From: Gammaproteobacteria bacterium
GTDB lineage: Bacteria > Pseudomonadota > Gammaproteobacteria > Nitrosococcales > Methylophagaceae
Length of the DNA stretch: 64,000 bases
Direction: 5' to 3'
NCBI GenBank assembly: GCA_014859375.1
Contig: JACUUH010000002.1
Span: 62,001 to 126,000 of the forward strand
The position numbers and the translations under genes were made by a program. Below, piece after piece: positions 21,060 to 61,632 of the stretch (the stretch's first letter is position 1; each line of letters begins with the position of its first letter). Under the pieces are notes generated by a model. That model had not been told where the DNA came from, did no database searches, and was given only the letters and a program-made list of their open reading frames with translations.

Positions 21060-22508
21060 ATGAGCGAATTATCGACATCTTTTGCTGAGCCAGCCTATGT
21101 TTCCAGACTAGCACTAAGGTGCGCCCCCTTTAGCAACAGTGTCGACAATACCCTTTACTATAGTAGTGGACAATTAGAACATCGACTTAACCTGCTACTT
21201 CACCTTGTTAGGGCTAGTGATAAAATTGGTTTAATAATGGCCGAACATGGTCTTGGTAAAACGACATTACTCACACAGCTAAAATCACGGACTGGTGACG
21301 AATTACGGTTATGTATGATTGATGCCAAACAGCATCAAACGATAGACACTATATTAATCAAATGCCTGCAAGATCTTGGCGTTGAACAGAATGACCTTGA
21401 TCCAAGTTTAAGCCAGACTGACAATTTTCGTAATCGACTTAAACAATTACGAAAACTTAATATTCGCCCAATTCTTGTGCTGGATGATGCTCAGACATTT
21501 TCTACGTCGATCATCGCTGAAATATCACACTGGCTTAGCTGGCAGGACAACAATCAATTTCTGCTACAAGCCATTATTGCAACAACGCATCCATTGCCAC
21601 TGTCAGAGTTCGTTCTGGCACGAATTCAGCACATTGATCTGCCTGCATTAACCCGAGATGAGCTCGCATCGTATTTAACAGACCGGATGACAAAAGCTGG
21701 CTACATTGGTGATTTTATTTTCACTGACAAAGAGTTGAATAAATTCTACAAACGCGCTCGTGGCAACCCGGCTTTAGTAAATCAATTGGCGCATCAAAAA
21801 CTATTAGGAATAAAATCTGGATTAACAGATATAAAGGCATTTAACGTAAGTTCGTTATTGAATTTTCGCAGGCTTGGTGTTGCTATTATTGTTGTATTGC
21901 TAGCGTTATTACTTGTTTACCAGGATGAGGTTAATACCTTTTTTAAAATTGATACAACTAGCCAAGTTGATAATGATATTACCCTGGTTCAACCAGAAGA
22001 CGATGTTGCCACCATTACTGTTGAACACGATAAAGTAATGTCACATCAGGACGCTGTTCGGCAAGAATTGGTCGAGCTTATTGAACAATTACCACAGCCA
22101 GAAGATGACATTACACCGGTAGAGAATCATAAGCCGATAATCGAAAACATTCCTAATGCTGAACCGACTCCGCCATTGGAGCTTGGCGTTGCAAAGATGT
22201 CTTTACCAGAACTGTATCGAGAACCATGGGTATTGCAACAACAGGGTACGGATTATACGTTTCAATTAATGGGATCATGGCAACAGCAAGAAGTATATGA
22301 TTTCGTTAATAAATATGCACTCACTGGCGATGTTGCCATGTTGGAAAGCATGCGAAATGGTCGGCCTTGGTATGCACTTATTTATGGTGTGTTTGATAAT
22401 AAAGATCAGGCTTTGGCAGCAAGTAAACAATGGCCAGCGCCATTAAATACTTTACCATCGTGGTTACGGCGTTTTGACAGTGTACAAAAGCAGATTACAG
22501 GTTCTTAG
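21060..22508 (+). CDS. damX: DamX-like AAA ATPase with C-terminal SPOR domain
   Basis: A 482-residue protein. The N-terminal AAA domain (about 35-260) has Walker A in AEHGLGKTTLL and Walker B in ILVLDDAQTF, resembling the GspA/ExeA class. A single membrane helix (about 270-288) is followed by an acidic periplasmic linker. The C-terminal SPOR domain (about 395-475, with YTFQLMGSWQQQEV and WYALIYGVFDNKDQA) would bind denuded septal glycan. The order aroK-aroB-damX is conserved, and DamX acts in cell division. E. coli DamX lacks a functional ATPase; here the P-loop looks intact. Its last 14 bases overlap the convergent decarboxylase gene. Confidence 0.88.
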   Translation: MSELSTSFAEPAYVSRLALRCAPFSNSVDNTLYYSSGQLEHRLNLLLHLVRASDKIGLIMAEHGLGKTTLLTQLKSRTGDELRLCMIDAKQHQTIDTILIKCLQDLGVEQNDLDPSLSQTDNFRNRLKQLRKLNIRPILVLDDAQTFSTSIIAEISHWLSWQDNNQFLLQAIIATTHPLPLSEFVLARIQHIDLPALTRDELASYLTDRMTKAGYIGDFIFTDKELNKFYKRARGNPALVNQLAHQKLLGIKSGLTDIKAFNVSSLLNFRRLGVAIIVVLLALLLVYQDEVNTFFKIDTTSQVDNDITLVQPEDDVATITVEHDKVMSHQDAVRQELVELIEQLPQPEDDITPVENHKPIIENIPNAEPTPPLELGVAKMSLPELYREPWVLQQQGTDYTFQLMGSWQQQEVYDFVNKYALTGDVAMLESMRNGRPWYALIYGVFDNKDQALAASKQWPAPLNTLPSWLRRFDSVQKQITGS

Positions 22509-23691
22509 CAATCTCATTCATTAACGTTTGTGCCTGAACATAGTGATGGCAAAACACGGTTCTATACACCGGCTTGCCAGCAATGTTCGCTTTTGAAATC
22601 ATGCCTTGATCAACTAAGGTATTTAAAGCTGACATTGGTTCCAGGCTAAAACACACAATGCCTGTCTCTGATCGATACAGTTCAAACCCCAGTGTGTCAG
22701 CAAGCATGTCAGAAAAAGCATTAGCTTGTTCCAAACGTTGTTTAAACCGTGAACTTAGTGCATCAACACCATTGATGATTAGATCAAACCACAAGGCTAA
22801 AAATAGTTCGCCACCATGGGAGCCAACCAAGCTGTTCAAAGGCGGTGATTCAAGATAATTAGTGTCAAAAGACAGCATTGGTTCAATATTCTTCTTGTAG
22901 AGTAAGACACCTGCAGGTTTAGGTTGTTGCCAGCCTTTATGTGGATCGAAACAGATCGAATCAGCTTGCCCAGACAACGCAAACAAAGGCTGATATTCGG
23001 GCAATATTGCCAAGGCACCGCCCCATGCCGCGTCAATATGACACCAAGCATTAAAACGTTTAGCAAGGTCACAACATGCTGCAATGGGATCGATTACACC
23101 GGCAGCCGAAGTGCCTAGTGTTGCAATAATTGCCAGTGGTGTTTGGGTTCGACACGCTGCTTCCAACGCACTTGGGATGAGTTGATCATGATCATTTGTT
23201 TCGATTAGTCTAAGTTCAAGATCGAGTATTTGGCAGGCCTTAGCGATTGAATAATGTGCCGCTGTTGACGCATAAACGATACGTGATGTTGTTGAGTGTT
23301 TTTTGGCTTGCCACAGTGCGTCTAAATTGCCATAAGTACTGCCACAGGTGAAATGGCCATAGGGCTGATGAAATAACTGGCTAAACCATGATAATAGCTG
23401 TTTTTCGATAGTGGCAAGGACAGGATAGAGCGATGCAGATAACAGGTTACCATTGTGTAAGTTTGCCACCAGTTGACCAAACATACTGGCAGCAGAGATT
23501 GGTGCAGTCATGTGTGCTGCCCAGGTTGGACTACGATGTTTGTTTCCTTCAGATACGACACTGTTGATTAGCTTTTCAAGTGACTCTGACTCTATCGGCT
23601 GATCATGTATAGCTATATTAAATGGTTGTGCTTGAACGATATTATGTAAACTACGCTCTAGTTCAGAGATAACAGTAAAGAATTGGTTCAT
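22495..23691 (-). CDS. mfnA: Group II PLP-dependent decarboxylase, MfnA-like (probable tyrosine or aspartate decarboxylase)
   Basis: A 398-residue fold-type I decarboxylase, close in length to archaeal MfnA. The PLP region is intact: HIDAAWGGALA holds the Asp and Ala contacts, and ADSICFDPHKGW holds the Schiff-base lysine, followed by a PAGVLLYKK turn. The S-x-GTSAAGVIDP segment is the usual cofactor-binding loop. Archaeal MfnA makes tyramine from tyrosine for methanofuran; relatives make beta-alanine from aspartate. The context favours the first: the gene overlaps the MfnE-like kinase by four bases (ATGA) and ends a tight run with pabB, MfnF-like and MfnD-like genes. Substrate assignment is inference from context. 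The 3' end overlaps damX convergently. Confidence 0.8.
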   Translation of the reverse strand: MNQFFTVISELERSLHNIVQAQPFNIAIHDQPIESESLEKLINSVVSEGNKHRSPTWAAHMTAPISAASMFGQLVANLHNGNLLSASLYPVLATIEKQLLSWFSQLFHQPYGHFTCGSTYGNLDALWQAKKHSTTSRIVYASTAAHYSIAKACQILDLELRLIETNDHDQLIPSALEAACRTQTPLAIIATLGTSAAGVIDPIAACCDLAKRFNAWCHIDAAWGGALAILPEYQPLFALSGQADSICFDPHKGWQQPKPAGVLLYKKNIEPMLSFDTNYLESPPLNSLVGSHGGELFLALWFDLIINGVDALSSRFKQRLEQANAFSDMLADTLGFELYRSETGIVCFSLEPMSALNTLVDQGMISKANIAGKPVYRTVFCHHYVQAQTLMNEIAKNL

Positions 23692-24287
23692 GACAAATCG
23701 ATTTTAGTCGTGCCGCTGGTGTGGCGTGACTGTTGAAGCAGATGATGATTTGCTGCATTTATCAGCTGAAGTGTTACTGGTGAGCTTCGGTAAAGTTGCT
23801 CAAAGCCAGCATCAATAATGCCGTTTTTAGTTAAGAATGGAATGCTGACATCATTTGGAATGTCACACGATTTAACTAATATCAGTTGTTCAGCATTGAG
23901 TTTGTTTGCTAACCACAATGCCAAGCTATCAGAGGTGATATCCCAGCTGTGAACAAGTTCTGATTCGGCTAATAATGTCTCGTCAGGTAGCCATACAGAA
24001 ACAGAATTTGCTGCTATTGGTGATTCGTTATATCGAAAACGCTGGCAATCAGATGATATTCCGGTCAGTAACAAACCAAATTGAGCCATCGCCAGTAGCG
24101 CCATATGATGCGCCGTACTATCATCAAAGTGGTAATTGTCTTGGGCTTTGCGCACATTGTCAGCAAATGGGCCACCACCCGGTACGATAATAATCGAACT
24201 GTGTTGTGCCAAGTTGGCTAATGCCTTTAGCCAAGGTTTTAGGTGTGAACTTTGATAAAGGCTGCCACCCAATTTGACGATGATCAT
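23688..24287 (-). CDS. mfnE: Amino-acid-kinase-family protein, MfnE-like (aminomethylfuran phosphate kinase)
   Basis: A 199-residue small amino acid kinase fold protein starting at ATG 24287, one base after the pabB stop. A TTG six codons upstream would overlap pabB and is unlikely. The nucleotide-phosphate motif KLGGSLYQS opens the protein, IIIVPGGGPFADNVRKAQ is the substrate/phosphate loop, and SWDITSDSLALWLA near residue 135 is characteristic of this family. In methanogens MfnE phosphorylates (5-aminomethyl-furan-3-yl)methyl phosphate to the diphosphate before coupling to the tyramine-glutamate part. The operon places it between pabB and the decarboxylase, overlapping the latter by four bases. 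Confidence 0.82.
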   Translation of the reverse strand: MIIVKLGGSLYQSSHLKPWLKALANLAQHSSIIIVPGGGPFADNVRKAQDNYHFDDSTAHHMALLAMAQFGLLLTGISSDCQRFRYNESPIAANSVSVWLPDETLLAESELVHSWDITSDSLALWLANKLNAEQLILVKSCDIPNDVSIPFLTKNGIIDAGFEQLYRSSPVTLQLINAANHHLLQQSRHTSGTTKIDLS

Positions 24288-24288
24288 A

Positions 24289-25680
24289 TCAACGTAATTG
24301 TTCAACTAATGACAACATAGCTGCCGCTTTGTCATGTACTTCCTGATATTCTGCATCTGCAGTTGAATCAGATACGATACCTCCGCCAGCCCAAAACCGA
24401 AGTCGATTATCACTATAAACAAGTGTGCGAATTAAAATATTGCTGTCCATTTCACCATCAAAACCAATATAAGCAATGGAACCACAATAGGCACCACGTC
24501 GATCAGGTTCTAGTTGTTCAATAATTTCCATTGCGCGTAATTTGGGGGCACCTGTAATTGAGCCACCGGGAAAACAGGCACGAAGTAGTGAAACAGCATC
24601 CTGATCAGATGCTAAGGTGCCAGTAATGGTACTTACTAAATGATGAACAGTAGCAAAAGATTCAAGTGCAAAGGGTTTGGGCACTTTGATGCTACCAGGT
24701 GTGCAAACTTTACCTAAATCATTACGCAACAAATCAACAATCATTAAGTTTTCAGCACGATCTTTAATACTATTAACTAATTCATCAGCAAGCGCTTTAT
24801 CTTGCTCGGGATTGTTTAATGCTCGGCGGCGAGTTCCTTTTATAGGTTTTGTTTCAACGAGTCCATTTTTTACTTGTAACAGGCGTTCGGGCGATGAGCT
24901 TAATAAGGTCACACCTGCAAAGGATAAATAGGCTGAAAAGGGTGCTGCATTAGCCTGACGTAACTGTTTATAGGCAAACCAGGGATCGCCTTGCGCTGAA
25001 ATTTCAAAACGTTTAGCAAGATTGACCTGATAGCAATCGCCTTCATGAATGTAATGTTGGATTTTATCGAAGGCACGTTGATAATCATGGCGGTTTAGAT
25101 TACAGATGAGCTCACCACTGACGATAAATTTTTCTTGATCAGAAGACCGTATCTGTGTGAGTCGGTCTATCAGTAATTGCCATTGTGTATGAGTATGTTC
25201 ATCTAAGCCAAAGCTGGCAAGCCAGCAGCGTTTTTCCTGATGATCGACCGTCACCGCCCAATCATAGATCGCAACAGCCATATCTGGGATCTGTTCATTA
25301 TTTCGTGCGATAACCGGCACGGTTTCAATATATCGACCTAAATCATATGAGAAGTAACCTATTGCACCCCCATTAAATGGCTGATCGCTCGGTGTTTGGC
25401 GTGGATAGTGGGCAAGCTGTTGGCGCAACACTAAGAAAGGATCATCTTGAGAGTGCGTTTGCTCGCCAAGTCGATTAGTAATAACCGTACCGAGTTCAGT
25501 TGTAGTTATGTTAACTAGTGGATCGGCAGCAATTATGTCATAACGACCTTGTTGATTTTTTTGACTGTGGCTACTATCAAGAAAGACGGGCCAAGGCATA
25601 TCACGTAATCGTTCAAAATAATGACTACTGTCGGCTAAATAAGGCAGTTCAAAATACAGTGGTGGGTGTGATGATGGCAT
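24289..25680 (-). CDS. pabB: Aminodeoxychorismate synthase component I (PabB)
   Basis: A 463-residue chorismate-binding enzyme. The PIKGTRRR motif near residue 280, with lysine in the second-last position of the loop, marks PabB; anthranilate synthase (TrpE) has PIAGT. Other family motifs are SPERLLQV, VDLLRNDLGKVC, PGGSITGAPKLRAMEIIE and YCGSIAYIG. It forms 4-amino-4-deoxychorismate, the p-aminobenzoate precursor of both folate and H4MPT. No glutamine amidotransferase (pabA) or lyase (pabC) is adjacent, so these must be elsewhere. It sits nine bases after the MfnF-like gene and one base before the kinase, which ties pABA supply to C1-cofactor synthesis. Confidence 0.92.
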   Translation of the reverse strand: MPSSHPPLYFELPYLADSSHYFERLRDMPWPVFLDSSHSQKNQQGRYDIIAADPLVNITTTELGTVITNRLGEQTHSQDDPFLVLRQQLAHYPRQTPSDQPFNGGAIGYFSYDLGRYIETVPVIARNNEQIPDMAVAIYDWAVTVDHQEKRCWLASFGLDEHTHTQWQLLIDRLTQIRSSDQEKFIVSGELICNLNRHDYQRAFDKIQHYIHEGDCYQVNLAKRFEISAQGDPWFAYKQLRQANAAPFSAYLSFAGVTLLSSSPERLLQVKNGLVETKPIKGTRRRALNNPEQDKALADELVNSIKDRAENLMIVDLLRNDLGKVCTPGSIKVPKPFALESFATVHHLVSTITGTLASDQDAVSLLRACFPGGSITGAPKLRAMEIIEQLEPDRRGAYCGSIAYIGFDGEMDSNILIRTLVYSDNRLRFWAGGGIVSDSTADAEYQEVHDKAAAMLSLVEQLR

Positions 25681-25689
25681 GGCAGTATT

Positions 25690-26733
25690 TTACGTTAACT
25701 GTTGCCATGCTAAAAGCGCAATTGCTACCGCTGGGGCATGATCTGCGGCAGCTGTTAACTCTGGTTGGCAAAGTGTTGCAAAATCAATGTAGTCATAACC
25801 CAGTTGCGCTGCACATTGCTTAATAATAAAGCGACCAATACCTGCGCCAACAATAGTGTGATTTTGTTGATGCGGGTGACAAGATAATACTTGCAAGATT
25901 GCATTAGTAATTTGGTGGATCTGTTGTTGAGCAAACCATTTAGCCAAGAGTTGCCACGAGGCTGACTCAACCTCATGAGCATCAGTACCTAATAAACGGG
26001 CTAACCGGTACACGCAATTAGCCTTATTCCATGGCTTGCCATCTGCTGAATTGTCTAAAATATCGTTAGGATTTAATTGATCCAGCATCACCCACACATC
26101 ACCAGTGGTAGCAAATAGTTCAGCAGCAAGGCTAATCAATTGGCCATCAAATGGCGCAACGGACGTTAACGCGATTAGAGGTGTTCGTATCGTACCGGTA
26201 TAAAGTAATTCACGGCTAATTTGACGGTGATGATCATCATAAGCTGAAGTAGCAACCTGATTTGAGATAATGGGAATGATGTCACAGGTAGTGCTACCAA
26301 GATCGATAAATACACTATTTGTAATCTTAGATGCAACGAAGTTAGCACTTGCTTGCCAGTTTCGTGAAGCAACATATTGCCATTCTCGTTTAGCATCTTC
26401 TACCGATAACCAGCCTTTTTCACCGGCATAGATCTGACATTGTTCTGATAGAATTAACTGTGTAACGCAGTTCAAAATCTCAGCAACACCAATTTCACGA
26501 TTTGCAAACAGATCGACTAATTCTCCGGTCATGGTTATAGCAGCCAGATCATGATGATTATTTAATTCATTTTGTGCCGCTATAATTGCATTCTCTAAGT
26601 GTTCAAGCCCTTGCCATAAGGGACATAGATATTGTCTCACTTCGAGTAGCTGACCGTCATGATCGCAACGTGCTACTTTTAGGTGAGCACCACCAATATC
26701 CCAACCCGACACATAAGATGACTGTTTGCTCAT
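25690..26733 (-). CDS. mfnF: H4MPT-linked C1 transfer pathway protein, MfnF-like
   Basis: A 347-residue protein of the hydantoinase/oxoprolinase-like ASKHA group, annotated in methylotrophs as an H4MPT-linked C1-transfer protein. The phosphate-1 motif is SGWDIGGAHLKVA (about 9-21). The second nucleotide motif is FIDLGSTTCDIIPI (about 138-151), and IVGAGIGRFI near 300 is the adenosine loop. ITMTGELVDLF and KREWQYVASRNW are further family signatures. In methanogens MfnF joins the activated furan to gamma-glutamyltyramine through an ether bond. It overlaps the upstream ATP-grasp gene by four bases (ATGA). Family membership is firm; the precise reaction in bacteria is by homology. Confidence 0.88.
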   Translation of the reverse strand: MSKQSSYVSGWDIGGAHLKVARCDHDGQLLEVRQYLCPLWQGLEHLENAIIAAQNELNNHHDLAAITMTGELVDLFANREIGVAEILNCVTQLILSEQCQIYAGEKGWLSVEDAKREWQYVASRNWQASANFVASKITNSVFIDLGSTTCDIIPIISNQVATSAYDDHHRQISRELLYTGTIRTPLIALTSVAPFDGQLISLAAELFATTGDVWVMLDQLNPNDILDNSADGKPWNKANCVYRLARLLGTDAHEVESASWQLLAKWFAQQQIHQITNAILQVLSCHPHQQNHTIVGAGIGRFIIKQCAAQLGYDYIDFATLCQPELTAAADHAPAVAIALLAWQQLT

Positions 26734-27752
26734 AATTGAATATGAACCTTATTTCTATGAGTAATAACTGATGGTGTCATTGAACCAGTCTTTTGCATAG
26801 TAAAAAAACGTGCCATCGGATTGAGTTGGAGAGATTCCCTCAAACCGGTATAGGATGTGGTTAAACGAGGGTTGATATCCACAACCACAGCCTGATCCGG
26901 TGTCAGTATAATATCAATACCAATAAAGCCAGATAAGCCTTCTATGGCGCGATCTATCGATGATGCTAACTGATAGGCCTGTTCAAGTGACAAGGTTGTA
27001 CTATCGATCTCATTGACGATGCAACCATGAAACTCGAGTTTATTATTGATCGAGATCAATTGTTGGTTTATCGCAAGCACTTCTATCTGATCGTTTGATA
27101 GTAATACAGATAAGCTAGCGGCACTACCCTTAACATAGGCTTGTACCAGATAAGAGTGAAGTTGCTTTATCGGTAATGAACTTAAATAGTGTTCAAGTTC
27201 TTTGGCATTCTTGAACAGAAACGTATCAATACAGCCTGCACCATCAATCGGCTTAGCAATGTAACCAGATTCTGAGATAAAGCGGTGTTGAGGCCATTCT
27301 TTAGCGATACAGCTATGTGTTGTGGCAATGTTATTCGCTGTTAATATTTGTTCACATATCAATTTATTGCTTGTAAGTCTAATCGCTTCTGGTGAACAAC
27401 CTAAAATGGCTTTTCCTGTTTGCAAAGCCTGTTGTTGAAGTTGGGCTAATATATCGTCTGTTTCAGGTGCGATAATAAAAATAGTATCGGCATCATCTAG
27501 ACATTGTTGCCATAATCGACTGTAATCACTGTTTGTAGAAACGAGATGGCGGCAGTGACGCTCAGGTTTTATCAGCTGATCATGATTTGATAGTCTTGTA
27601 TCACATAAAGTTATTAGCTCTATGTCAGTTAACTCGTGGCAATCAGTCAAAACAGCAGACAACATTTCAGTGCCTTCAAGCGCGAGACTTGTAGGTAACT
27701 CCTGCTCGGCAAAAGCACCACTGGTAATGTGTTCGTAAACAAATAATTTCAT
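26730..27752 (-). CDS. mfnD: ATP-grasp ligase, MfnD-like (tyramine/tyrosine-glutamate ligase)
   Basis: A 340-residue ATP-grasp protein. The N-terminus MKLFVYEHITSGAFA is typical of the MfnD group found with archaeal-type C1 genes. The ATP-binding core lies at about 120-320: GYIAKPIDGAGCIDTF is the nucleotide lysine region, YLVQAYVKGSAASLSVLL follows, and FIGIDIILTPDQAVVVDINPRLTTSY carries the D and N-x-R metal/phosphate residues. MfnD adds the first gamma-glutamate to tyramine in methanofuran synthesis. It heads the leftward five-gene run and is divergent from the HisA-like gene across only 23 bases. I see no strong ribosome site before its ATG. Confidence 0.85.
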   Translation of the reverse strand: MKLFVYEHITSGAFAEQELPTSLALEGTEMLSAVLTDCHELTDIELITLCDTRLSNHDQLIKPERHCRHLVSTNSDYSRLWQQCLDDADTIFIIAPETDDILAQLQQQALQTGKAILGCSPEAIRLTSNKLICEQILTANNIATTHSCIAKEWPQHRFISESGYIAKPIDGAGCIDTFLFKNAKELEHYLSSLPIKQLHSYLVQAYVKGSAASLSVLLSNDQIEVLAINQQLISINNKLEFHGCIVNEIDSTTLSLEQAYQLASSIDRAIEGLSGFIGIDIILTPDQAVVVDINPRLTTSYTGLRESLQLNPMARFFTMQKTGSMTPSVITHRNKVHIQL

Positions 27753-27775: not shown

Positions 27776-28438
27776 GTGGAAATTATACCGGTGATTGATT
27801 TAATGGGGGGAATAGTTGTGCGAGCAGGTGGCGGCAATCGCACACACTATCCGCCTTTATCATCATTAATAACCCAACATATCAATCCAATTGGCGTTAT
27901 TGCCGATATGTTGACTCTGCATAATTTCAAAAAGATATATATCGCAGACCTTGATGCGATATTTCATCAGCAACCGAAGTGGGATATTTATCGGGCGTTA
28001 CGATCCCGTTTTCCCGCGGTTACTTTGTTGATAGATGCTGGTATTCAAGATCAAAATCGTCTGTCTCAAATTACTGAACTGGGTGTTATTCCTATCATTG
28101 GGAGTGAGACGCTATCAGATATTTCATTATTGAAAGATCTCAAACAAGGCATCTTATCACTCGATTTTCAAAACGGAAGGTTGTTGGGGGATCAAACTTT
28201 GTTAGCACATCCTGAGATTTGGCCAGACACAGTTATCGCAATGAATATTGATTATATTGGCGCTAACAAAGGCGTGGATCTTGCGCTGTTGGATACAATT
28301 AGAAGCTTAAGATCTGACTGTAAGCTTATTGCTGCTGGCGGAGTCAGAAATCTGCAGGATATCGAACTATTAAAACAAATGGGAGTATCGGGAGCGCTTG
28401 TTGCCAGTGCATTGCATGACAAAAGAGTGGGCTTTTAA
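27776..28438 (+). CDS. HisA-family TIM-barrel protein in the C1-cofactor cluster
   Basis: A 220-residue (beta/alpha)8 protein related to HisA but about 20 residues shorter. The GTG start at 27776 has AAGGA at a seven-base distance. Both acid/base aspartates used by HisA for the Amadori rearrangement are retained, Asp8 in IPVIDLMGG and Asp130 in ILSLDFQNG. The C-terminal phosphate loop is also kept (AAGGVRNLQD, then GALVASALHD). No other his gene is near. HisA-like proteins recur next to archaeal-type formaldehyde genes in methylotrophs, which suggests an isomerase or aldol-type step in H4MPT or furan-cofactor synthesis. The actual substrate is unknown. It is the only rightward gene in this block and converges on fae. 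Confidence 0.8.
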   Translation: MEIIPVIDLMGGIVVRAGGGNRTHYPPLSSLITQHINPIGVIADMLTLHNFKKIYIADLDAIFHQQPKWDIYRALRSRFPAVTLLIDAGIQDQNRLSQITELGVIPIIGSETLSDISLLKDLKQGILSLDFQNGRLLGDQTLLAHPEIWPDTVIAMNIDYIGANKGVDLALLDTIRSLRSDCKLIAAGGVRNLQDIELLKQMGVSGALVASALHDKRVGF

Positions 28439-28491: not shown

Positions 28492-29013
28492 TTACTCAGC
28501 TGCCGCAAAAGGATGCGAGCTAGTTTTGTATTGTGCTACTACGTCAGCTGCTTTTGGTTCACGAGCAACGGCACGCTTGATTGATTCTTTAGTTGCACGG
28601 TAGTTCCAATCTTGGATTTTTTTGTCGCTGTCAGCTGTTGGAGAAATGAATACACCAACACAGATGAAGCAATCATCAGCTTCAACAGCTGGGATTGTGC
28701 CATCTTCAACACATTCAGCAACAGCCATAGCTACGCCACGTTGTGCTGGGCCAAACATTTGAACAGCTTGTTTCATGTTTTTGATTGTAACTTTGTTGAA
28801 CATAACTGTTGCAGGTTTAACCATAAGGTTAGGCGCAACTACGGCTAAAAGGCCGTTAACACCTTGTTTTTGGTCTGTTAAAGTGCGGCAGAAAGCATCT
28901 TCTGCAGCTGAGCCACGTGGGCCCATGATTAAATCAATGTGAGCAACGTTGTCTAAGTCACCATCTTCAATGACCAAAGATTCACCTACAAGTACGCGAT
29001 CGATAACTGGCAT
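28492..29013 (-). CDS. fae: Formaldehyde-activating enzyme Fae
   Basis: A 173-residue cytosolic enzyme that condenses formaldehyde with H4MPT to methylene-H4MPT, the entry reaction of the archaeal-type formaldehyde oxidation route. The Fae signature [17 protein letters not shown] (about residues 26-42) includes the conserved histidine at the active site. [22 protein letters not shown] and [14 protein letters not shown] are also typical. AGGA lies eight bases before the ATG. A 145-base gap separates it from orf5, and it ends in its own terminator, so it can be expressed independently at a high level, as known for Fae. The regular codon choice along the gene fits high expression. Confidence 0.97.
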
Positions 29014-29158: not shown

Positions 29159-30007
29159 TTAAGAAAGCGCCTCACGGAATGCATGAACTAACAGCGTTGC
29201 AGCGGTTAAATCAGCGGTTGTTCCTGGGTTTATCGCTTCCTTTTTTAATTCTATATCCCATTTGATAATATCGCGTTCTATCCGGCTTATCCCTTTGAAT
29301 TGCAAGGGATATCGTAGTAATTGTTTCGCAAATTTCATAACTTCATGGGCGCGTTCAAGACCATATTTACGATATATAAGAGAGTCAGGAACGTTACTTA
29401 GAAGGTTAAGATACGCGAAAGTGGTAGCCCATTCAACACTTTCGCCACAATTTAACGATTCTGTCAACTTAGCCAGCCCAATTGTATATATTTCGTGATA
29501 ATTATTTAGGTATTGTGCGGCAATAGCATCGTGATTCCGAGCAATTGCCATTGCTTGTCTAAGAGTGACGGTTGGGGTGTTATTAATATCTTGTTGTTCA
29601 CTGTGGCCTAAGCCACCAGCTTGAGCTAATCGAATGGCCTGATAGGTATCTATTGCATCTTTAATCGTTAAGTTGTTGAGGACATGATCTAGTTTTTGTG
29701 GCAATTGTTCAAAAGAATCGCAGTTTTGAATGGCGCAGCATAGTGGTGCAAATAACAGTACTATGCCGAGATTAGTATTGCAATCGACAACGGTTCGCGT
29801 GGCAATAATTGCATCAAGGATCATCTGACCAACATTACTATTGGGCACCGATAAAGCGGGTGCAATAGCATGGGCACTATTGATGAAGTCTTGTAGCTGC
29901 ATATTATGTGCATCGCTAAAGCAATTTACATTGCCCGGTTTAGGCGCTGCAACTTCATGTTCACATGCCCAGACGATACATTTTTGTATTTGTTCAGTTG
30001 ATAGCAT
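29159..30007 (-). CDS. Triphosphoribosyl-dephospho-CoA synthase-like protein (methylotroph orf5 type)
   Basis: A 282-residue all-helical protein of the CitG/MdcB family. Family motifs include CEHEVAAPKPGNVNCFSDAH (about 15-34), DCNTNLGIVLLFAPL (about 75-90) and a C-terminal IKKEAINPGTTADLTAATLLVHA-like segment that holds the conserved N-P-G-T-T-A-D-L. In methylotrophs this homologue is called orf5, sits with mch and fae, and is needed for the H4MPT pathway, presumably in cofactor synthesis with a ribosyl-phosphate donor. It overlaps orf7 by 14 bases. No citrate lyase or malonate decarboxylase genes are near, which argues against the classical CitG role. Confidence 0.85.
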   Translation of the reverse strand: MLSTEQIQKCIVWACEHEVAAPKPGNVNCFSDAHNMQLQDFINSAHAIAPALSVPNSNVGQMILDAIIATRTVVDCNTNLGIVLLFAPLCCAIQNCDSFEQLPQKLDHVLNNLTIKDAIDTYQAIRLAQAGGLGHSEQQDINNTPTVTLRQAMAIARNHDAIAAQYLNNYHEIYTIGLAKLTESLNCGESVEWATTFAYLNLLSNVPDSLIYRKYGLERAHEVMKFAKQLLRYPLQFKGISRIERDIIKWDIELKKEAINPGTTADLTAATLLVHAFREALS

Positions 30008-30953
30008 GTTCAGATGTGTCGATCGGTGCTGCGCTAATTTTATTAACTAATGCTTGCGCCAAGGTTGCTGCAACATCAATTCCCGTAGCCTGATAGAGTC
30101 CTTTCCAGGCTGGAACACTATTCACCTCTAACACAGTATAGTGACCATCCTGATGTCTGATTAGATCAACGCCGGCATAATCAGCCTCTACTGCTTTGGT
30201 GGCCGAGATCGCAAGCTGTGTCATTTCATCGGTAATGGTTGTGGCGGAACACATTGCACCTTGAGCGAAATTAGTTATCCAATGATCGGAATGGCGAGAC
30301 ATTGCTGCACAGACTGTGCCTTCAATCACCATTAATCGCCAGTCTTGCCATTGTTTCTGTTCACGAGGAGCAACATATTCCTGAAGATATAAGGCGTCTC
30401 CAATGGCATCATAGCTATCAAATTCTTTGATTGAGCTGACTTTAGCCAGCCCCTTGCCTTGGCAACCAAATAAAGGTTTTAAAATTAAGGTTTTATTTTG
30501 TCTAAATTGGTCAATAGCGATATCACGCGCAACCGCTCTATTTTCACAAGCCCAAGTGGTTGGTGTCTTTATTCCAGCAAGGTGAAGTCGAAGTGACGTG
30601 CGCGCTTTATCGACAGTGTGCTCTATGGCCTTGGCTGGATTAAATACCGGTACATTGAGTTCGGCAAGTGTATGTAAGACATCCATACGAAGGGTGATTT
30701 GTTCTAGCGTGCCCGGAGCAATGCCGCGTACTAAGACTGCCGCAGGTAGTTTATTTTCAAAGCCGGGAATATGTAGTCCTGTTGGATGTGTTAGATCGAT
30801 GCAGCAGTCAGCAAGATCACTCAGCACAACGGAAACGTTGTATTTGGCAAAGGCATCGACCAATTGCTGACTATGCCAGCCATGTGTGTCATTAAATATT
30901 ACGATTTTAGGTGAAGGCATAATAGTCGATTTGGAGTTAGGGAGTAGTGACAT
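29994..30953 (-). CDS. RimK-like ATP-grasp ligase (methylotroph orf7 type)
   Basis: A 319-residue ATP-grasp protein of the RimK/MptN group. The ATG at 30953 is supported by GGGGAG at six-base spacing; a second ATG at 30920 has none. The ATP-grasp core (about 110-310) includes KTLILKPLFGCQGKGLAKV, YLQEYVAPREQKQWQDWR and AGVDLIRHQDGHYTVLEVNSVPAW with the metal-binding E-x-N. In methylotrophs this gene (orf7) accompanies mch and orf5, and glutamyl or ribosyl-acid ligation on H4MPT is the usual proposal. It lies 21 bases after mch and overlaps orf5 by 14 bases, so mch-orf7-orf5 form one transcript. Confidence 0.85.
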   Translation of the reverse strand: MSLLPNSKSTIMPSPKIVIFNDTHGWHSQQLVDAFAKYNVSVVLSDLADCCIDLTHPTGLHIPGFENKLPAAVLVRGIAPGTLEQITLRMDVLHTLAELNVPVFNPAKAIEHTVDKARTSLRLHLAGIKTPTTWACENRAVARDIAIDQFRQNKTLILKPLFGCQGKGLAKVSSIKEFDSYDAIGDALYLQEYVAPREQKQWQDWRLMVIEGTVCAAMSRHSDHWITNFAQGAMCSATTITDEMTQLAISATKAVEADYAGVDLIRHQDGHYTVLEVNSVPAWKGLYQATGIDVAATLAQALVNKISAAPIDTSEHAIN

Positions 30954-30974: not shown

Positions 30975-31958
30975 TTACAGTCCGAAAGACAATGTGAGTA
31001 ATTCTTGATTTAAGGTTCCAGCGGTGAAGCTTTTACCAGTATTGGTATTGGTTACAATAACTTTTGCTGGGCTAAACAACATCGGATCAATTTTAAAAAA
31101 ATCGAATTCGTAAGACTTAAAAATCTCACCAAATGGACGACCATAATCTGATGATGAATTACTCGGCATTTTTTCAGCTAAGTCTTTGGCTTCATCGTCA
31201 GTTGCATCAACAAATAAATGCACCATACCACCATACAAAATCGCATCATTGGTGCGACCCATACCTGTCATAAAGTCACCACCTGGTGGTGCTACAGGTG
31301 TTACACCAAAACCATCAACAATTTTTTCCATAGGGAAATGAACGGTGTGGGCTTTGTGCATGGCAACTTCAAGTACACGAATTGCAATTTGCATCACACC
31401 AGCAAGGCTTGATGTCGGTGTCAAAATGAACGTTAAGTTTTCAGGTTTGATGCCACAGTTGTTTGCGACTTTTTCTGCCACTTCAATCGGTGGAAATGAA
31501 TCAACTTCTAATACGATGCAGGTTGATTCTGCTTCGTCTTTGTAAGCAAATTCTTTTAATACTTCTTCACGACCTGCCAATGCGCGGCCTGGGCCTGAAC
31601 CTAAAGCAAAGAATTTTGTATTTTCGTCTTTATGAGAAAGACTCCAGCCAGCATATTGACTGCCTAGGCAGCTTAAAACAGGAGTTTTAGCATGGACATT
31701 GACCGACCATGGCCAGTTGTCAAAACCACTATTTGTGCCCAGCGTAGCCGTGCCTAAACCGCCCATACAAATTTCACCGATACGGCGGCCAGCCTCAAGG
31801 CCACCGACACAGTTAATACCTGCGTCAACAATACGTGTACCGTTTTCAAGGGTGCTAATTTCGAGTTGGAGTGCTTGTGCGTCAGCAACAAGGCTCTCTA
31901 CTAAAGGTTGGCATGCAGCGTTAACGCTGGTCCAATTGGCAGAAATGGTACTGCTCAT
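30975..31958 (-). CDS. mch: Methenyl-tetrahydromethanopterin cyclohydrolase Mch
   Basis: Converts methenyl-H4MPT to N5-formyl-H4MPT in the formaldehyde oxidation route. The start at ATG 31958 gives MSSTISANWTSVNAACQ and 327 residues; an in-frame TTG eight codons earlier is rejected because the family begins at the MSS region and a GGGAA lies just upstream of the ATG. Characteristic segments are GLEAGRRIGEICMGGLGTA, YAGWSLSHKDENTKFFALGSGPGRALA and ILYGGMVHLFVDATDD. It is the first gene of mch-orf7-orf5. No mtdB or formyltransferase/hydrolase genes are in the window. Confidence 0.97.
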   Translation of the reverse strand: MSSTISANWTSVNAACQPLVESLVADAQALQLEISTLENGTRIVDAGINCVGGLEAGRRIGEICMGGLGTATLGTNSGFDNWPWSVNVHAKTPVLSCLGSQYAGWSLSHKDENTKFFALGSGPGRALAGREEVLKEFAYKDEAESTCIVLEVDSFPPIEVAEKVANNCGIKPENLTFILTPTSSLAGVMQIAIRVLEVAMHKAHTVHFPMEKIVDGFGVTPVAPPGGDFMTGMGRTNDAILYGGMVHLFVDATDDEAKDLAEKMPSNSSSDYGRPFGEIFKSYEFDFFKIDPMLFSPAKVIVTNTNTGKSFTAGTLNQELLTLSFGL

Positions 31959-32028
31959 GGCAAAGTTCCCGTGTGTAATCAAATAGATAATTATACGTTA
32001 TGTGTGTTTAACTGTAATCTACTGGCAC

Positions 32029-35728: not shown

Positions 35729-38700
35729 TTAATTTAGAGTGTTAGGGTAAAGATCACCCAATAAATCTTGTAAGGTCTGAACAAGTTCATTTTCCTGATA
35801 GGGCTTGCCCAGATAAGCATTTACACCGATGGTTGATGCTCTTTCACGATGTTTATCACCTGTTCGAGAGGTAATCATAATAATGGGCAATGACTTTGTT
35901 TCAGGATTATTCCTGACTACAGATGCAAATTCAAACCCATCCATTCGAGGCATCTCGACATCAAGCAAAATAATATCGGGTATTTGTTCATTTATGAGTG
36001 CAACCGCATCGATACCATCACGTGCCGTTATAACATCAAAGCCATGTCGTTTTAGTAGATTACCAGTGGCTTTACGCATGGTGATTGAATCATCAACTAC
36101 CATAGCAATAGGTGTTCGTTTTTCAGCCTGTTTTGGTTCTATATTGAAAGCATTTTTTCGTTTTGCATCGTTACCATGATCTAAAATTGTAGATTTTTCG
36201 ATTAAGGTTGGAATATCCAACACAAATGCGACTTGGCCATCACCCATAATCGTTGCCCCAGTGATAGCATCAATCTGACCTAGTTGTGGACCGACTGATT
36301 TCAGTACTATTTCACGATTGCTATTGATGGCATCAACTAATAAAGCAATATGTTTATCACTATAGCGGAACAGTAATAGTGGTAGTTGTTTATTGGCATC
36401 ATCCGCTAAATTAAAAGGTTGATCGAGTAGCTGTGCCAAGGCAATAAATTGATAATAGGCACCATTAAATTCATAGCGAGGTTCGCCTTCTTGAGCTAAT
36501 AACGTTTTTACATTGGCGACGGTAATCCGTTCACCGGCATGGACTGCTGCCAGCGGAATAGCATATTGGTGGTCATAACTACTGACTAGTAGTGCTTGCA
36601 TGATCGATAAGGTTAAGGGTAAACGAATACTAAAGGTCGTGCCTTGACCAAATATCGATTGGATTGAGAGCCGACCTTTTAATGCTCGGATTTCATTACT
36701 GACTACATCCATGCCTACACCCCGACCAGAAAGTTGTGAGACATCGTCGGCTGTAGTGAAGCCAGAGCTCAGGATCAATTGAATTAACTCATCATCACCG
36801 GGGATATTGTCAGGATTAATTAAGTTTTGACTCAAGGCTTTTTGTTTGATCTTTTCTACATCAATACCGCGACCATCATCAGCAAGCGTGATCAGAATTT
36901 CAGTGCCATCTCGCGTAATGGTCAGGTCTAGTTGTCCTGTCCGGTCTTTACCTGAACGCATTCGTTGTTCAGGAGCTTCAATACCATGACCAATTGCATT
37001 TCTTAAAATATGTTCAATAGGTGCAACAATATGGTCAAGGATGGAGCGATCTAGTTCGCGTTCAGCGCCATAAACAGTAAGTTTAGATGACTTACCAAGA
37101 CTTTCATTTGTTTGGCGGACAATACGTTCTAAACGTGGTATCAGACCACTAAAAGGTAATAAACGTGTGTTCATTAAACCTTGCTGAATATCCGTGCTCA
37201 GACGAGATTGTTGTAATAAAATGGCATCGGAATCACGGACCAAACTATTCAGTGACTGTGTGATGTCATTTAAATCGCTGACACTCTCTGTTAAGCCACG
37301 AGATAATTGCTGAATCATCGAGAATCGATCTAGTTCAAGTGGATCAAATTCAGATTGTCGGGTTAACTCACCCTCGTAACGGAATAAAATTTGTGTTTCC
37401 GTTTCAATTTCAAGATTACGTAGTTGATCTTGTAGACGCTCAACAGTGGCTTCCATTTCACTGAGTTGTTGGCGAATTGCAGTGTTATGTTGGCTGACGC
37501 GATCACGCGAAATATTGACTTCGCCAGCGAAATTGGTCAAGAAATCGAGTAAGTCAGAACGCACCCTGACTTGTTCAACATGGGCAGGCTGTTGTGGTGT
37601 TGCTGGTGCATCAACCGGTGCTGTGTTTGGTAACTTTGTGACATAGTCATTTACAATATCGGATGGTAGAGCAGCTTGTGGCTCGCTTAATTCAGGTTCT
37701 TGGCCTGAGAATGCGGCAATCTCTGCCAGCAAATCATCAGCAAAAGCAATGGATGCCTGTTGTGCTAATAAATCTTGCATATCTGCCATACGATCCTGGC
37801 AGCGCTGTAGAAGATTGAAAAAACGGTCATTGGCTTCACATTTATGTTCAACCGCTAACAGCACTAACGATTCTGTCTGATGACTTAGATCTGCTATTGG
37901 AGTAATGCCTGTTAAGCGCGCCCCGCCTTTTAATGTATGAAGATCGCGTTGAAGTTGCATTGCAGCATCAACATCATTTGGAGCGTGTTGCCAATTTTTA
38001 ATTGCATCGCCACTGGATTCGAGTAGTTCGGCACACTCTTCAGTGAATGCTTCAAGTAGCTCCTCTTCTCCAGTTGGAATTGCGAATAATGTAGCCGCTG
38101 TGCCATCTGGCGCTACCATAGGAGATGCTGGCAGAGCAATGTACTGCTCGACATCAGATTGAAACGTTCCAATATCAGTAGCGGCTTGATTTTGAATGAC
38201 ACGATCAATTTGATCGTTGATATGTTCGAATCCCTGTTCGAGTAGTTTGAAGCCATGTTGATTATCAGATGAGTTGGTATGAGTGATAATTTGACCAAGC
38301 AACTCATACAGCTTGGCAATGGTTGTTAATTTTGCATTACGAGAACCGTCAGCAAGCTGGATTAAGGTGTCATTAACAGACTGTTTGTAAGCTTGATTAC
38401 TTGGATCGGTTCGATAATTAGCAAGCTGTTGACTGTATTGCTCTAATAATTCATCAGTTTCTTCCAAATAGACAACCAAAAATTCTGGATCGATGATAGG
38501 TTCTACTTTATTTTGTCTAGGCGTGATCTTGAATAAATTATCAGATAAAACACATAAATTAGGTTCTTCGATTTCCGGGTTGTTTTGATGTTCTATGATT
38601 TGATAGATAGCCTCAATTGTGTGTTGTAATAACAAGAATTCGTCGCTATTTAAACGGTGATCGTGTTCGTAAATTGTACGAAGAGCGTGATCGAGTTCGG

Positions 38701-41700
38701 TTGCGATCAAGGCTACGGGAGTAACTTGAGCGATATTGGCGCAGCCTTTTAAAGAATGGGCCGCACGTAATAACTCTTTATTTAGTACAAATGGAATGTG
38801 TGCATGTTCGAACGCATGCTTAAAGGTGGCTAGATGCTGCTGTGCCTCGGCATGAAATATTTGCAGTAACTCATCGTGTTCAGACATCTCTGTTGCAGTG
38901 GCTTCAAAAGAGTCTGTCAATTCTGGCTCAGAAAAATCATGATCAAGTTCTAATGTTTCACTGATAGAGGCTAGTTCTTGTAAGAGTGTTGTTTCAGACG
39001 CTTCACTACTTGGCTCATCCGTCTCCACGTTTTGCTCTGTAACATCGATATTATTATCAAAGGTCAGTTCAATATGGTCTTGCTTGGTTGCAAGCGTATC
39101 AATATACCGCTGAACAGACGTTGGTTGAGGCTCAGAAACCGGTGTTAATTCAGACTCAAGCTCAATAGGTTCGAACGGTAAATCCAGAGCAGTATCGTCA
39201 CGTTCTAGCGGTTGCTGTTCAGTACTATCGAATGCGAGATCAACATTGTCTTGCTTGGTTGCAAGTGCATCGATATAGCGTTGAACAGACGTTGGTTGAG
39301 GTTCAGAGACAGGTGCTAATTCAGGTTCAGGTTCGACAGCTTCGAGTGTTAAATCAAGTGGCGTATCATCAATTTCAAGTACTGGTTGTGCGACACGTTG
39401 ATCAAGCGCGATATCTTGAACTGCATTATTGATTGCAGATGCTTGTTCTGGATTAAGTAATGCATTTGCTCTAGCTGAAATAGTGTCGACTTCAATGGTC
39501 GATGAAATATCTGCATGGATAAAGCGCGTTAACAAGTCAGGAATGATTTCAAAACCATCAAGGACAAGCTGAACGATATCTGTTGAAATCGTACTGTTTT
39601 TCTCTATAACTTGATTTAATAACGATTCAATAGACCATGCCAGTTGCCCTATAACGTCAGCACCAGCCATACGCCCGCTACCTTTAAGGGTATGGAAATG
39701 TCTTCTTATTACAGCTAACACATCAGCATCATGCCGTGTCTGCCATTCAGGAATAAGCGTCGCTAATTCACCCAAGACCTCATTGGCTTCTTCAATAAAG
39801 ATCTCTGCTATCTCAGGGTCAATGCCTTGTGCAAACGATGGTGTTAACTCTGTCTTTAGTTCGATTGACTCGTTCTCGACTGGTTCTAACGTTAGGGTAT
39901 GTTGCTGGTTTTCAACAGCATCAATATAACGTTGTACACCTGTTAATTGAGGTTCAGAAGGCGCTACAGAATTAACATCGGAGTCATTATGTCCGAGAGT
40001 AAGAGCAAGCGCTTCCTGATCAAGGCTTATCGATGTGTAAGCAGTGCTGACATCAAATGGTGCTTTATCAACGTTTAAATTATGAGTTTCTGAGATATTA
40101 AATTGTTGGTCAATATCTTGATTTTGCTTGGTAATATACTCTTCAACAGGACGAGTTTGCTTGTCCTCAATTTCAGATAATGTAGTCTTAGTGATAGTCG
40201 GAGTTGGCTGATCCAGTTTGTTTTGTGCTTGTTGTAATAAGTGTAACTGCTGTTGTCCATGTTTAGTAACACCACCCATGTAAAGTTCAATAGCTGCGAT
40301 GACTTCTGCAAAAATAGACAATACGTCACGTGTCACAGTTTGAGGTTCACGCATTCGGGTAGCAGTGTTTTCTAGTAAAGAGGCGACTTCTGTCAAGTTC
40401 AACATGGTTAAACTTCCAGCAATCAATTCCATCTGAATTGCTACTTCCGGCAATGTTTCGTGAGCGGTGTCCAAATGGGTTTCTAATTGTGTTAACGCTT
40501 CTTTTATTGTGAATAACTCTGTCAGACATTCATTAATCACAATAGGTTGAAGCTGGGCAGTTTCATTGCCATTATCGCCGGTGTTATTACTATCTTTGCG
40601 CAGTAAATTCTCAACAGTTAATACATCATCTGCCAGCGACAATAATTGCTCATCACTCAGCAATGTTTCGTTGTCGTGGATAGCCGCCAGTTGTTGAGCC
40701 TGTTGACGCAATATGTTGCTTGCAGTCGATTCGCTTAATAAATCAAGCGTATCTGCAATCGTATTAAAACTGTCAGAGAGCACTGCTGCTGTTTGTTGAG
40801 AGTCAACAGTATGGCGATCAAATTGATCAATTTGTGCTTTAATTTCTTGTAATTGTTCTAATAGTGCCGAATGCACTTCTGTCAAAGCATTATCACTGAA
40901 GCTATAGAGTTTTTGATGTTTTTGCACATCATAAAAATCTAGTTTAAATACGTGCTTTAACAAACTAACATGTTTACCAGAACTGCTTGAACGAGCAATA
41001 AACAGGAGAAGATTTTTGACTAAATCAGTTGGATATTTAGCCATTAATTGTTGAATGTCATTTTGACCAAATAACTTGATCGAATGATTTAAATTACCCA
41101 AGGTCAATTTGGTTTCAGAATTTATTGGTAAGCCATCATCAAGCAGTGCTTCAATGAAGCCTTCTGCTACCCACCATAAAATGACCAGGCGATCATGGGT
41201 CGACTGTGTTCTCAAATAATGAACAATCTGACTAATTTTTTTCAGGCCGATTCTGTCTTGAGTTTTGATCCATTGCAACAATGAAATTTGAAAAGCATGG
41301 CTTGCTTTATCGAGAGATAAACCCGTTGCTGATTCTTGCTGTGATGGCAAGGCTATGTCATTAGGTAAAACGATTGAAAAATTTGGTTTGAACAAGTTTG
41401 TTGGAGAAAGTGGCGCCTCACCTCGAGCTGTTCTGAGTTCATTGATGGTTTCAATCAGGCGTAAGGGATGATCTTCGAAGTCATGTCCAATTAACTTGAG
41501 ATAATTAGGCAGTAGTAATAACCCTTTCAATATCGTATCGGCAATGCTTTCTGAGTTAGTGCTGGTCTGTTTTGTTAACATTGAAATTGAGCTTAACATC
41601 TCTCTTATTAGCAGGTTCGCACCTGCAAGCCCAAGCATATCAATGACACCATGGGTTTGCCCCAATTGATTTATACAGGGTACTAATTTGCTTGTATCAT

Positions 41701-41812
41701 CGGGTGAATCGATGAAGCGAGTTACTGCCGTAAGCGCATCAGCTAGTGATTGCTGAATGTCATCTTGAACCCAGACAAGGGCGTCATAATTACCACTATT
41801 TGTCTGTGCCAT
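35729..41812 (-). CDS. chpA: ChpA/PilL hybrid chemosensory histidine kinase with multiple Hpt domains
   Basis: A 2027-residue CheA-type hybrid kinase controlling type IV pilus motors. Three canonical Hpt domains have phospho-accepting histidines at about H707 (RRHFHTLKGSGRMAG), H1019 (AAHSLKGCA) and H1292 (DLHTLKGGARLTG). The N-terminal 600 residues contain degenerate Hpt-like bundles lacking the H-x-L-K-G core. A dimerisation helix region (about 1420-1540) is followed by the HATPase core (about 1590-1730; HILRNAIGHGIE, LADDGRGID, LSGRGVGMDVV), a CheW domain (about 1735-1870) and a C-terminal receiver with the phosphorylation site near D1951 (ILLDVEMPRMDG). Acidic linkers carry a repeated VQRYID motif. 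It lies between pilJ and chpC. Confidence 0.95.
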   Translation of the reverse strand: MAQTNSGNYDALVWVQDDIQQSLADALTAVTRFIDSPDDTSKLVPCINQLGQTHGVIDMLGLAGANLLIREMLSSISMLTKQTSTNSESIADTILKGLLLLPNYLKLIGHDFEDHPLRLIETINELRTARGEAPLSPTNLFKPNFSIVLPNDIALPSQQESATGLSLDKASHAFQISLLQWIKTQDRIGLKKISQIVHYLRTQSTHDRLVILWWVAEGFIEALLDDGLPINSETKLTLGNLNHSIKLFGQNDIQQLMAKYPTDLVKNLLLFIARSSSSGKHVSLLKHVFKLDFYDVQKHQKLYSFSDNALTEVHSALLEQLQEIKAQIDQFDRHTVDSQQTAAVLSDSFNTIADTLDLLSESTASNILRQQAQQLAAIHDNETLLSDEQLLSLADDVLTVENLLRKDSNNTGDNGNETAQLQPIVINECLTELFTIKEALTQLETHLDTAHETLPEVAIQMELIAGSLTMLNLTEVASLLENTATRMREPQTVTRDVLSIFAEVIAAIELYMGGVTKHGQQQLHLLQQAQNKLDQPTPTITKTTLSEIEDKQTRPVEEYITKQNQDIDQQFNISETHNLNVDKAPFDVSTAYTSISLDQEALALTLGHNDSDVNSVAPSEPQLTGVQRYIDAVENQQHTLTLEPVENESIELKTELTPSFAQGIDPEIAEIFIEEANEVLGELATLIPEWQTRHDADVLAVIRRHFHTLKGSGRMAGADVIGQLAWSIESLLNQVIEKNSTISTDIVQLVLDGFEIIPDLLTRFIHADISSTIEVDTISARANALLNPEQASAINNAVQDIALDQRVAQPVLEIDDTPLDLTLEAVEPEPELAPVSEPQPTSVQRYIDALATKQDNVDLAFDSTEQQPLERDDTALDLPFEPIELESELTPVSEPQPTSVQRYIDTLATKQDHIELTFDNNIDVTEQNVETDEPSSEASETTLLQELASISETLELDHDFSEPELTDSFEATATEMSEHDELLQIFHAEAQQHLATFKHAFEHAHIPFVLNKELLRAAHSLKGCANIAQVTPVALIATELDHALRTIYEHDHRLNSDEFLLLQHTIEAIYQIIEHQNNPEIEEPNLCVLSDNLFKITPRQNKVEPIIDPEFLVVYLEETDELLEQYSQQLANYRTDPSNQAYKQSVNDTLIQLADGSRNAKLTTIAKLYELLGQIITHTNSSDNQHGFKLLEQGFEHINDQIDRVIQNQAATDIGTFQSDVEQYIALPASPMVAPDGTAATLFAIPTGEEELLEAFTEECAELLESSGDAIKNWQHAPNDVDAAMQLQRDLHTLKGGARLTGITPIADLSHQTESLVLLAVEHKCEANDRFFNLLQRCQDRMADMQDLLAQQASIAFADDLLAEIAAFSGQEPELSEPQAALPSDIVNDYVTKLPNTAPVDAPATPQQPAHVEQVRVRSDLLDFLTNFAGEVNISRDRVSQHNTAIRQQLSEMEATVERLQDQLRNLEIETETQILFRYEGELTRQSEFDPLELDRFSMIQQLSRGLTESVSDLNDITQSLNSLVRDSDAILLQQSRLSTDIQQGLMNTRLLPFSGLIPRLERIVRQTNESLGKSSKLTVYGAERELDRSILDHIVAPIEHILRNAIGHGIEAPEQRMRSGKDRTGQLDLTITRDGTEILITLADDGRGIDVEKIKQKALSQNLINPDNIPGDDELIQLILSSGFTTADDVSQLSGRGVGMDVVSNEIRALKGRLSIQSIFGQGTTFSIRLPLTLSIMQALLVSSYDHQYAIPLAAVHAGERITVANVKTLLAQEGEPRYEFNGAYYQFIALAQLLDQPFNLADDANKQLPLLLFRYSDKHIALLVDAINSNREIVLKSVGPQLGQIDAITGATIMGDGQVAFVLDIPTLIEKSTILDHGNDAKRKNAFNIEPKQAEKRTPIAMVVDDSITMRKATGNLLKRHGFDVITARDGIDAVALINEQIPDIILLDVEMPRMDGFEFASVVRNNPETKSLPIIMITSRTGDKHRERASTIGVNAYLGKPYQENELVQTLQDLLGDLYPNTLN
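39029..39370 (-). repeat. 171-bp tandem duplication inside chpA (two 57-residue units)
   Basis: Unit 1 (39370-39200, residues 815-871) and unit 2 (39199-39029, residues 872-928) both run DDT-x-LDL ... SEPQPTSVQRYID-x-LATKQD. The DNA is also alike over most of the length. A third, diverged copy of the motif (LTGVQRYIDAVENQQ) lies near residue 626, after the degenerate Hpt region. Confidence 0.85.
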
Positions 41813-61584: not shown

Positions 61585-61632
61585 TTGACCTTTTTTAATT
61601 TTATCCCGACTAATCGACTGGAGTTTTTCCAA

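Follow-up and report, generated by a model that had tools for sequence, protein, structure and literature searches.

Within the 64,000-nucleotide stretch of DNA presented above, which was analysed as a whole (the window), five leftward genes at 22495–27752 would constitute the methylofuran/tetrahydromethanopterin (H4MPT) biosynthesis block of the Methylophaga family, a group of methanol users with methylofuran as a one-carbon carrier. We consider it likely that the last of them encodes a dedicated tyrosine decarboxylase that makes tyramine for methylofuran; this is the best reading of the locus, from which we infer the substrate, the order of the steps and the cofactor. What was observed in its support is (i) the gene order and its conservation, (ii) the catalytic residues of the enzyme, (iii) its status as the lone PF00282 protein and (iv) purifying selection. 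The enzyme would be a pyridoxal phosphate (PLP)-dependent L-tyrosine decarboxylase that converts tyrosine into tyramine and that was probably recruited from a source other than archaeal MfnA. The MfnD-like ligase would then join tyramine and glutamate, the MfnE-like kinase would activate the aminomethyl-furan, the MfnF-like enzyme would couple the furan and glutamyl-tyramine parts, and PabB would provide p-aminobenzoate for H4MPT. The predicted product is a tyramine-type methylofuran, as in other proteobacteria, with a core as in archaeal methanofuran.

The five-gene leftward operon, decarboxylase included, had been proposed in an earlier note on this DNA and was confirmed by the open reading frames (ORFs), by NCBIfam and by the gene order across the family. 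According to the ORF calls, the genes, all on the reverse strand, are joined by 4-base overlaps or by gaps of 1–9 bases. The first (26730–27752) would encode an MfnD-like ATP-grasp ligase of the tyramine:glutamate ligase type (NF040722, its best match, 95 bits, below the cut-off of 400). It overlaps by 4 bases the gene for an MfnF-like furan coupling enzyme (25690–26733; TIGR03123, 326 bits, cut-off 244), of the Orf9 type in the passages of PMC8141765 considered here. A gap of 9 bases separates the latter from a pabB-like gene (24289–25680; TIGR00553, 378 bits, cut-off 328) for aminodeoxychorismate synthase component I, the predicted source of p-aminobenzoate for H4MPT or folate, and a gap of a single base separates pabB from an mfnE-like gene (23688–24287; NF040622, 95 bits, below the cut-off of 300) for a 199-amino-acid (aa) kinase of the [5-(aminomethyl)furan-3-yl]methyl phosphate kinase type. 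The start of mfnE is an ATG at 24287; an alternative TTG start at 24305 in the ORF list would overlap pabB, and the NCBIfam score of mfnE was obtained with an in-frame 203-aa version starting at 24299. A last 4-base overlap leads from mfnE to the decarboxylase gene (22495–23691), whose 398-aa product is a group II PF00282 PLP decarboxylase, the proposed tyrosine decarboxylase of methylofuran biosynthesis. The curated NCBIfam cut-offs are passed by mfnF and pabB; the mfnD, mfnE and mfnA models are best matches that score far below theirs.

The conservation of this arrangement was analysed in the window's own family (57 genomes), taken as the Methylophaga family; the assembly of the window (G000) measures 2.35 Mb and is 96.7% complete. 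Most of the nearest loci bear the label Methylophaga, among them those of M. muralis (L057), M. thiooxydans (L059) and M. aminisulfidivorans (L064); two come under Piscirickettsiaceae and some under Gammaproteobacteria only. The decarboxylase is present in 53 of the 57 genomes, and so is mfnF (in G039 as a fragment below the cut-off). Both genes occur together in 51 genomes, 50 of which have them on the same contig and strand with the decarboxylase 2003–2119 bases after mfnF, a spacing that leaves room for pabB and mfnE; the earlier claim that the decarboxylase is locked into the furan operon therefore held. The sole exception, G011, has the two genes split over two contigs. Of the other six genomes, two carry mfnF but no decarboxylase (G042, and G032, whose contig has just 495 bases left at the expected site), two carry the decarboxylase but no mfnF (G024 and G051) and two carry neither: G003, a 1.1-Mb genome, and G006, which is 86% complete. 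A second collection comprised 78 loci, 23 of which were assigned to the family by identity and gene order (several are the same contigs as in the 57 genomes). mfnE lies directly upstream of the decarboxylase in all 23, and no mfn neighbour was found at the decarboxylase-like gene in the other 55.

In 52 of the 53 family genomes that have the decarboxylase, the window's assembly among them, PF00282 has no other match; G010 holds a second copy (C23:10–654), which is cut by the contig start and is 38% identical to the window protein. Compared with its counterpart in the nearest genome (G020), the decarboxylase is 93.7% identical and has a ratio of nonsynonymous to synonymous substitution rates (dN/dS) of 0.127, the lowest in the operon (0.202–0.278 for the other four genes). 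Because the same gene order is found throughout the family and dN/dS is lowest for the decarboxylase, the operon link is more than chance; it is real and general in the Methylophaga family.

The protein itself belongs to PF00282 (133 bits, cut-off 27) and has the PLP lysine, the histidine and the aspartate of these enzymes. H146, D220, K252, Y279 and R377 are invariant in all 62 family loci, some of which derive from the same genomes. An AlphaFold2 model reached a mean predicted local distance difference test score of 87.2, with low confidence at residues 19–23 and 275–291, the latter corresponding to the catalytic-loop region. When this model was searched with Foldseek, the tryptophan decarboxylase of R. 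gnavus (4obu) and a Sphaerobacter decarboxylase (4rit) ranked first, and MfnA of M. jannaschii came at rank 47 (template modelling scores 0.76/0.78). The family profile has its best matches in 8zpi (186 bits) and 4rit (174), and scores 102 bits with M. jannaschii MfnA. In the alignment, the invariant Y279 falls on chain position 336 of 4rit, which probably is the Y333 mutated in 4riz and 4rj0, assuming a 3-residue tag on the chain. These three decarboxylases (4rit, 8zpi and 4obu) differ from the window protein in being longer, at about 480–490 aa, and to our knowledge have no link to furan cofactors. In the alignment, the catalytic loop is about 10 columns shorter than that of plant tyrosine decarboxylase TyDC1, so the long loop of the aromatic amino acid decarboxylase/plant tyrosine decarboxylase clade is absent.

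The prediction of a tyramine-type product has to be viewed against published work. Hemmann et al. (2021; PMC8141765), in the passages considered here, report tyramine-type methylofuran in six of nine proteobacterial strains and the tyrosine type in M. extorquens, M. radiotolerans and M. album. The premise of the earlier note about bacteria, drawn from the tyrosine-containing methylofuran of M. extorquens, is therefore out of date; the tyramine-type core that it predicted remains the best prediction, but as a bacterial novelty it had already been published for those six strains. According to the same passages, most tyrosine-type strains are without MfnD; this operon has mfnD, which counts for a tyramine-type product. 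PF00282 candidates designated MfnA were named there in three of the six tyramine-type strains and none in the other three. The system in the window resembles the one described in that paper in the cofactor pathway, in the proposal of a PF00282 decarboxylase for tyramine and in its MfnD, MfnE and MfnF homologs. It differs in that those candidates were named singly (Mfla_2033, which lies beside the mxa cluster, Snov_0063 and VAPA_RS28950), none being described in an mfnD-mfnF-pabB-mfnE operon in the passages covered. The name Methylophaga is absent from the main text of that paper, and no report joining Methylophaga with a methylofuran type or a cofactor mass was found in the open-access literature searched.

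Whether the enzyme is an archaeal-type MfnA was considered separately, as a question of descent only; a true MfnA ortholog that was gained from archaea and diverged strongly would be compatible with a tyrosine decarboxylase of methylofuran biosynthesis. We regard such an origin as unlikely. The description 'MfnA-like' used earlier is apt for fold, length and operon position: archaeal MfnA (TIGR03812; M. jannaschii, PDB 3f9t and 6jy1) shares with the window protein the PF00282 fold, the PLP lysine in a DPHK motif, a length of about 390 aa, a short catalytic loop and the proposed reaction. The two also have in common an LYP/LFx motif (here Y89, a tyrosine in 60 of 62 loci) that is absent from the other decarboxylases aligned and that they may share either by descent or through a similar pocket. 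The LLSxxLYP stretch encoded at 23422–23445 of the window resembles NLGNPGLYP of archaeal MfnA, and this stretch possibly belongs to a substrate pocket shared with it. The description fails by score. Against a cut-off of 299.4 bits for the MfnA equivalog model TIGR03812, the window protein reaches 113.2 bits and three other family members 79–124, and it is nearer by score to bacterial decarboxylases (pairwise, 104 bits with R. gnavus tryptophan decarboxylase vs 53 with M. jannaschii MfnA). An archaeal MfnA, in turn, scores 274 bits against M. jannaschii MfnA and 163 against a sphingosine-phosphate lyase.

The phylogeny that the earlier note had asked for gave an answer that depends on the outgroup. 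A tree of 59 proteins unites the Methylophaga-family decarboxylases in one clade (support 100/100), with short beta- and gammaproteobacterial PF00282 proteins as the sister clade (99/89) and archaeal MfnA across a long branch. The short proteins (L070–L072 and L076, from Burkholderiaceae, Zwartia and Acidiferrobacteraceae) resemble the family enzyme in their length of about 400 aa, a WxHVDAAWGG motif, an HK..QPK motif and a GSxGA loop; they differ from it in being only 28–30% identical and in having no mfn neighbours. No TIGR03123 match was found in any of nine genomes tested, among them the four of these short proteins. In approximately unbiased (AU) tests on the 59-protein tree, a grouping of the family with archaeal MfnA was not rejected (P = 0.206). 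A second tree included one sphingosine-phosphate lyase row, flagged by the program as long-branched, and with this row present the grouping of the family and MfnA to the exclusion of the lyase was rejected (P = 0.00022). The best tree with the lyase places the family beside MfnA plus lyase, but at a support of 69/36 this placement speaks neither for nor against orthology; a sister position of the short proteins is absent from that tree, yet is not rejected (P = 0.43). A grouping of the family with all 13 rows of the aromatic clade was not rejected either (P = 0.064). AU tests involving the rows of the sister family described below (P = 4.5e-6) and two aromatic references (P = 7e-68) were withdrawn, as the groupings tested also break up well-supported groups. 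What evidence there is suggests that archaeal MfnA is nearer to lyases than to the family enzyme, and the latter is therefore probably not an MfnA ortholog, with the tree evidence resting on one added outgroup row.

The occurrence of the block and of PF00282 genes was then compared outside the family. The order comprises 63 genomes, the 57 of the Methylophaga family and six of a sister family, which, as a guess, we take to be Nitrosococcaceae. In the four sister-family loci read, mfnD, mfnF, pabB and mfnE stand together without the decarboxylase, with a HisA/F-related gene beside the block in three and 2.2 kb away in the fourth. In all six genomes of the sister family, a PF00282 gene lies at a distance of roughly 60 kb or more from mfnF. 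When such a gene was searched against the PDB (L044; another is in L046), the nearest entries were R. gnavus tryptophan decarboxylase (241 bits) and then tyrosine decarboxylase (216 bits); judged by sequence, the L044 enzyme is of the aromatic-decarboxylase type.

A class-wide sample of 369 genomes gave a TIGR03123 match in 49 (41 above the cut-off). Once three weak partial matches (G154, G416 and G421) and the four genomes belonging to the window's family were set aside, 42 remained, five of which are below the cut-off (G100, G203, G315, G347 and G411). A profile of the family decarboxylase (A1) matches in 18 of the 42, 14 of them with E <1e-20. A match to mfnD exists in 40, of which 39 are strong (E <1e-25), and in 37 genomes it adjoins mfnF. 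PF00282 matches above the cut-off occur in 16 of the 42, namely in 13 of the 39 with a strong mfnD match, in 11 of the 37 with mfnD beside mfnF (and hence not in 26 of these) and in all three without strong mfnD (G152, G181 and G273). In G152, HisAF, mfnF, pabB and mfnE follow in order and mfnD is missing (L178:5719–9362); in the 59-protein tree, its PF00282 protein (L137) and one from G181 (L148) group with plant TyDC1. Among 16 loci of other families, read one per genome, 12 show the full mfnD-mfnF-pabB-mfnE block (with mfnD in two pieces in L177). The incomplete ones include L175, which shows HisAF, mfnD and mfnF only, L179, without an mfnE match, and L180, where the contig ends after pabB. 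A HisA/F-related gene lies beside the block in all 16.

A match to the window decarboxylase was found in one of these 16 loci, that of G301, 6.3 kb after mfnE and beyond an mfnB-type gene, which occupies the slot after mfnE there. The gene (L166:14099–15679) is of a different PF00282 type and lies just before a gene that reads as dihydropteroate-synthase-like; it is possibly another recruitment. The idea that one gene generally fills the position behind mfnE outside the Methylophaga family was rejected, since across 19 loci no protein family is common to more than four.

Several points weigh against a dedicated tyrosine decarboxylase. A PF00282 match over the cut-off is absent in 26 of the 39 other genomes with strong mfnD. 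The presence of mfnD thus does not generally entail such a decarboxylase, and it was rejected as a marker for a linked one; these genomes may obtain tyramine by another route, or their MfnD may accept tyrosine as well. The NCBIfam models for histidine, diaminobutyrate and aspartate decarboxylases score 111, 101 and 98 bits, near the 113 of MfnA. With these models and that for tyrosine within 16 bits of each other, the sequence does not name the substrate, and the models were dropped as substrate evidence. So was the structure, as the top 50 Foldseek matches mix tryptophan, lysine, histidine, glutamate, cysteine-sulfinate, aromatic and tyrosine enzymes.

The alternatives fare less well. The enzyme might act later, on the tyrosine moiety after furan coupling, on a glutamate-free core with its amine free, and the same tyramine-type cofactor would result. 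The passages of PMC8141765 considered here report a glutamate-free core in a mutant and call furan coupling before glutamate addition conceivable, and the free alpha-amine that PLP chemistry requires would be available. However, free tyrosine is the substrate of archaeal MfnA (as cited there) and the MfnD-like ligase points to tyramine being glutamylated early, like in archaea; we find this order of steps improbable. A comparably small chance is given to an enzyme for another aromatic or basic amine (histamine, tryptamine or a dopamine-like product), unrelated to methylofuran and in the operon for historical reasons: tryptophan, histidine and diaminobutyrate decarboxylases are among its best matches, but the gene keeps the same slot in 50 of the 51 testable genomes and is under purifying selection, and the two family genomes lacking both genes are the 1.1-Mb and the 86% complete one. 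Least probable of all is a decarboxylase for aspartate or another acidic amino acid, producing beta-alanine or a similar amine and placed beside the operon for co-regulation, because, although the M. jannaschii enzyme was deposited as an L-tyrosine/L-aspartate decarboxylase and the PanP model (TIGR03799) gives 98 bits, that is far from its cut-off of 606, no other operon gene needs beta-alanine in the established pathways, and panD (PF02261) is present in G000 and in 60 of the 63 genomes of the order, so that beta-alanine supply does not need this enzyme (for which reason aspartate was rejected as the main substrate).

The surroundings of the operon are of the same kind. A HisA/HisF-related gene (27776–28438, forward strand; TIGR00734, 132 bits, cut-off 180) is divergent from mfnD, and beyond it lie, on the reverse strand, fae for formaldehyde-activating enzyme (28492–29013; TIGR03126, 216 bits, cut-off 118), a RimK/MptN-type ATP-grasp glutamate ligase gene (29994–30953; TIGR00768, 163 bits, cut-off 143; NF040720, 205 bits, cut-off 350) and mch for methenyl-H4MPT cyclohydrolase (30975–31982; TIGR03120, 409 bits, cut-off 229), with a CitG-like gene between fae and the ligase gene. 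With the mfnD-mfnF-pabB-mfnE block, the divergent HisA/F gene, and fae and mch nearby, the region is an H4MPT/methylofuran gene island. Elsewhere in the window, 35729–41812 encodes a hybrid chemotaxis kinase of 2027 aa that has CheW and receiver domains and three matches to Hpt, and 61585–62550 a periplasmic binding protein of a phosphonate-type ABC transporter (PF12974).

The tyramine-type cofactor itself is already known in bacteria; what is new here is the decarboxylase locked into the operon, which was probably recruited independently, together with how much of the tyramine supply is still unaccounted for. Of the nine strains mentioned above, Methylomicrobium album is the one known to belong to the Gammaproteobacteria in the older sense. 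A tyramine-type cofactor in Gammaproteobacteria in that sense would be new if true, M. album having made the tyrosine type (PMC8141765, passages considered here). The same passages left the source of tyramine open in three of the six tyramine-type strains. The candidate described here is linked with the pathway through its place in the operon, which holds throughout a family that has cultivated members, and is thus directly testable. Tentatively, and with slightly less than even confidence, we suggest that the tyramine step has been solved several times in bacteria by decarboxylases of separate descent: by a distinct lineage of short PF00282 enzymes, fixed at the fifth position of the operon, in the Methylophaga family, by a distant aromatic-type PF00282 enzyme in the sister family (probably Nitrosococcaceae), by a third type near an mfnB-type gene in the G301 lineage, and by an enzyme not yet known in most mfnD-carrying lineages. 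The 26 of 37 survey genomes without a PF00282 match over the cut-off would give the width of the gap in tyramine supply, if tyramine is used there. If a rule links mfnD, the decarboxylase and the type of cofactor, the latter would become predictable from genomes.

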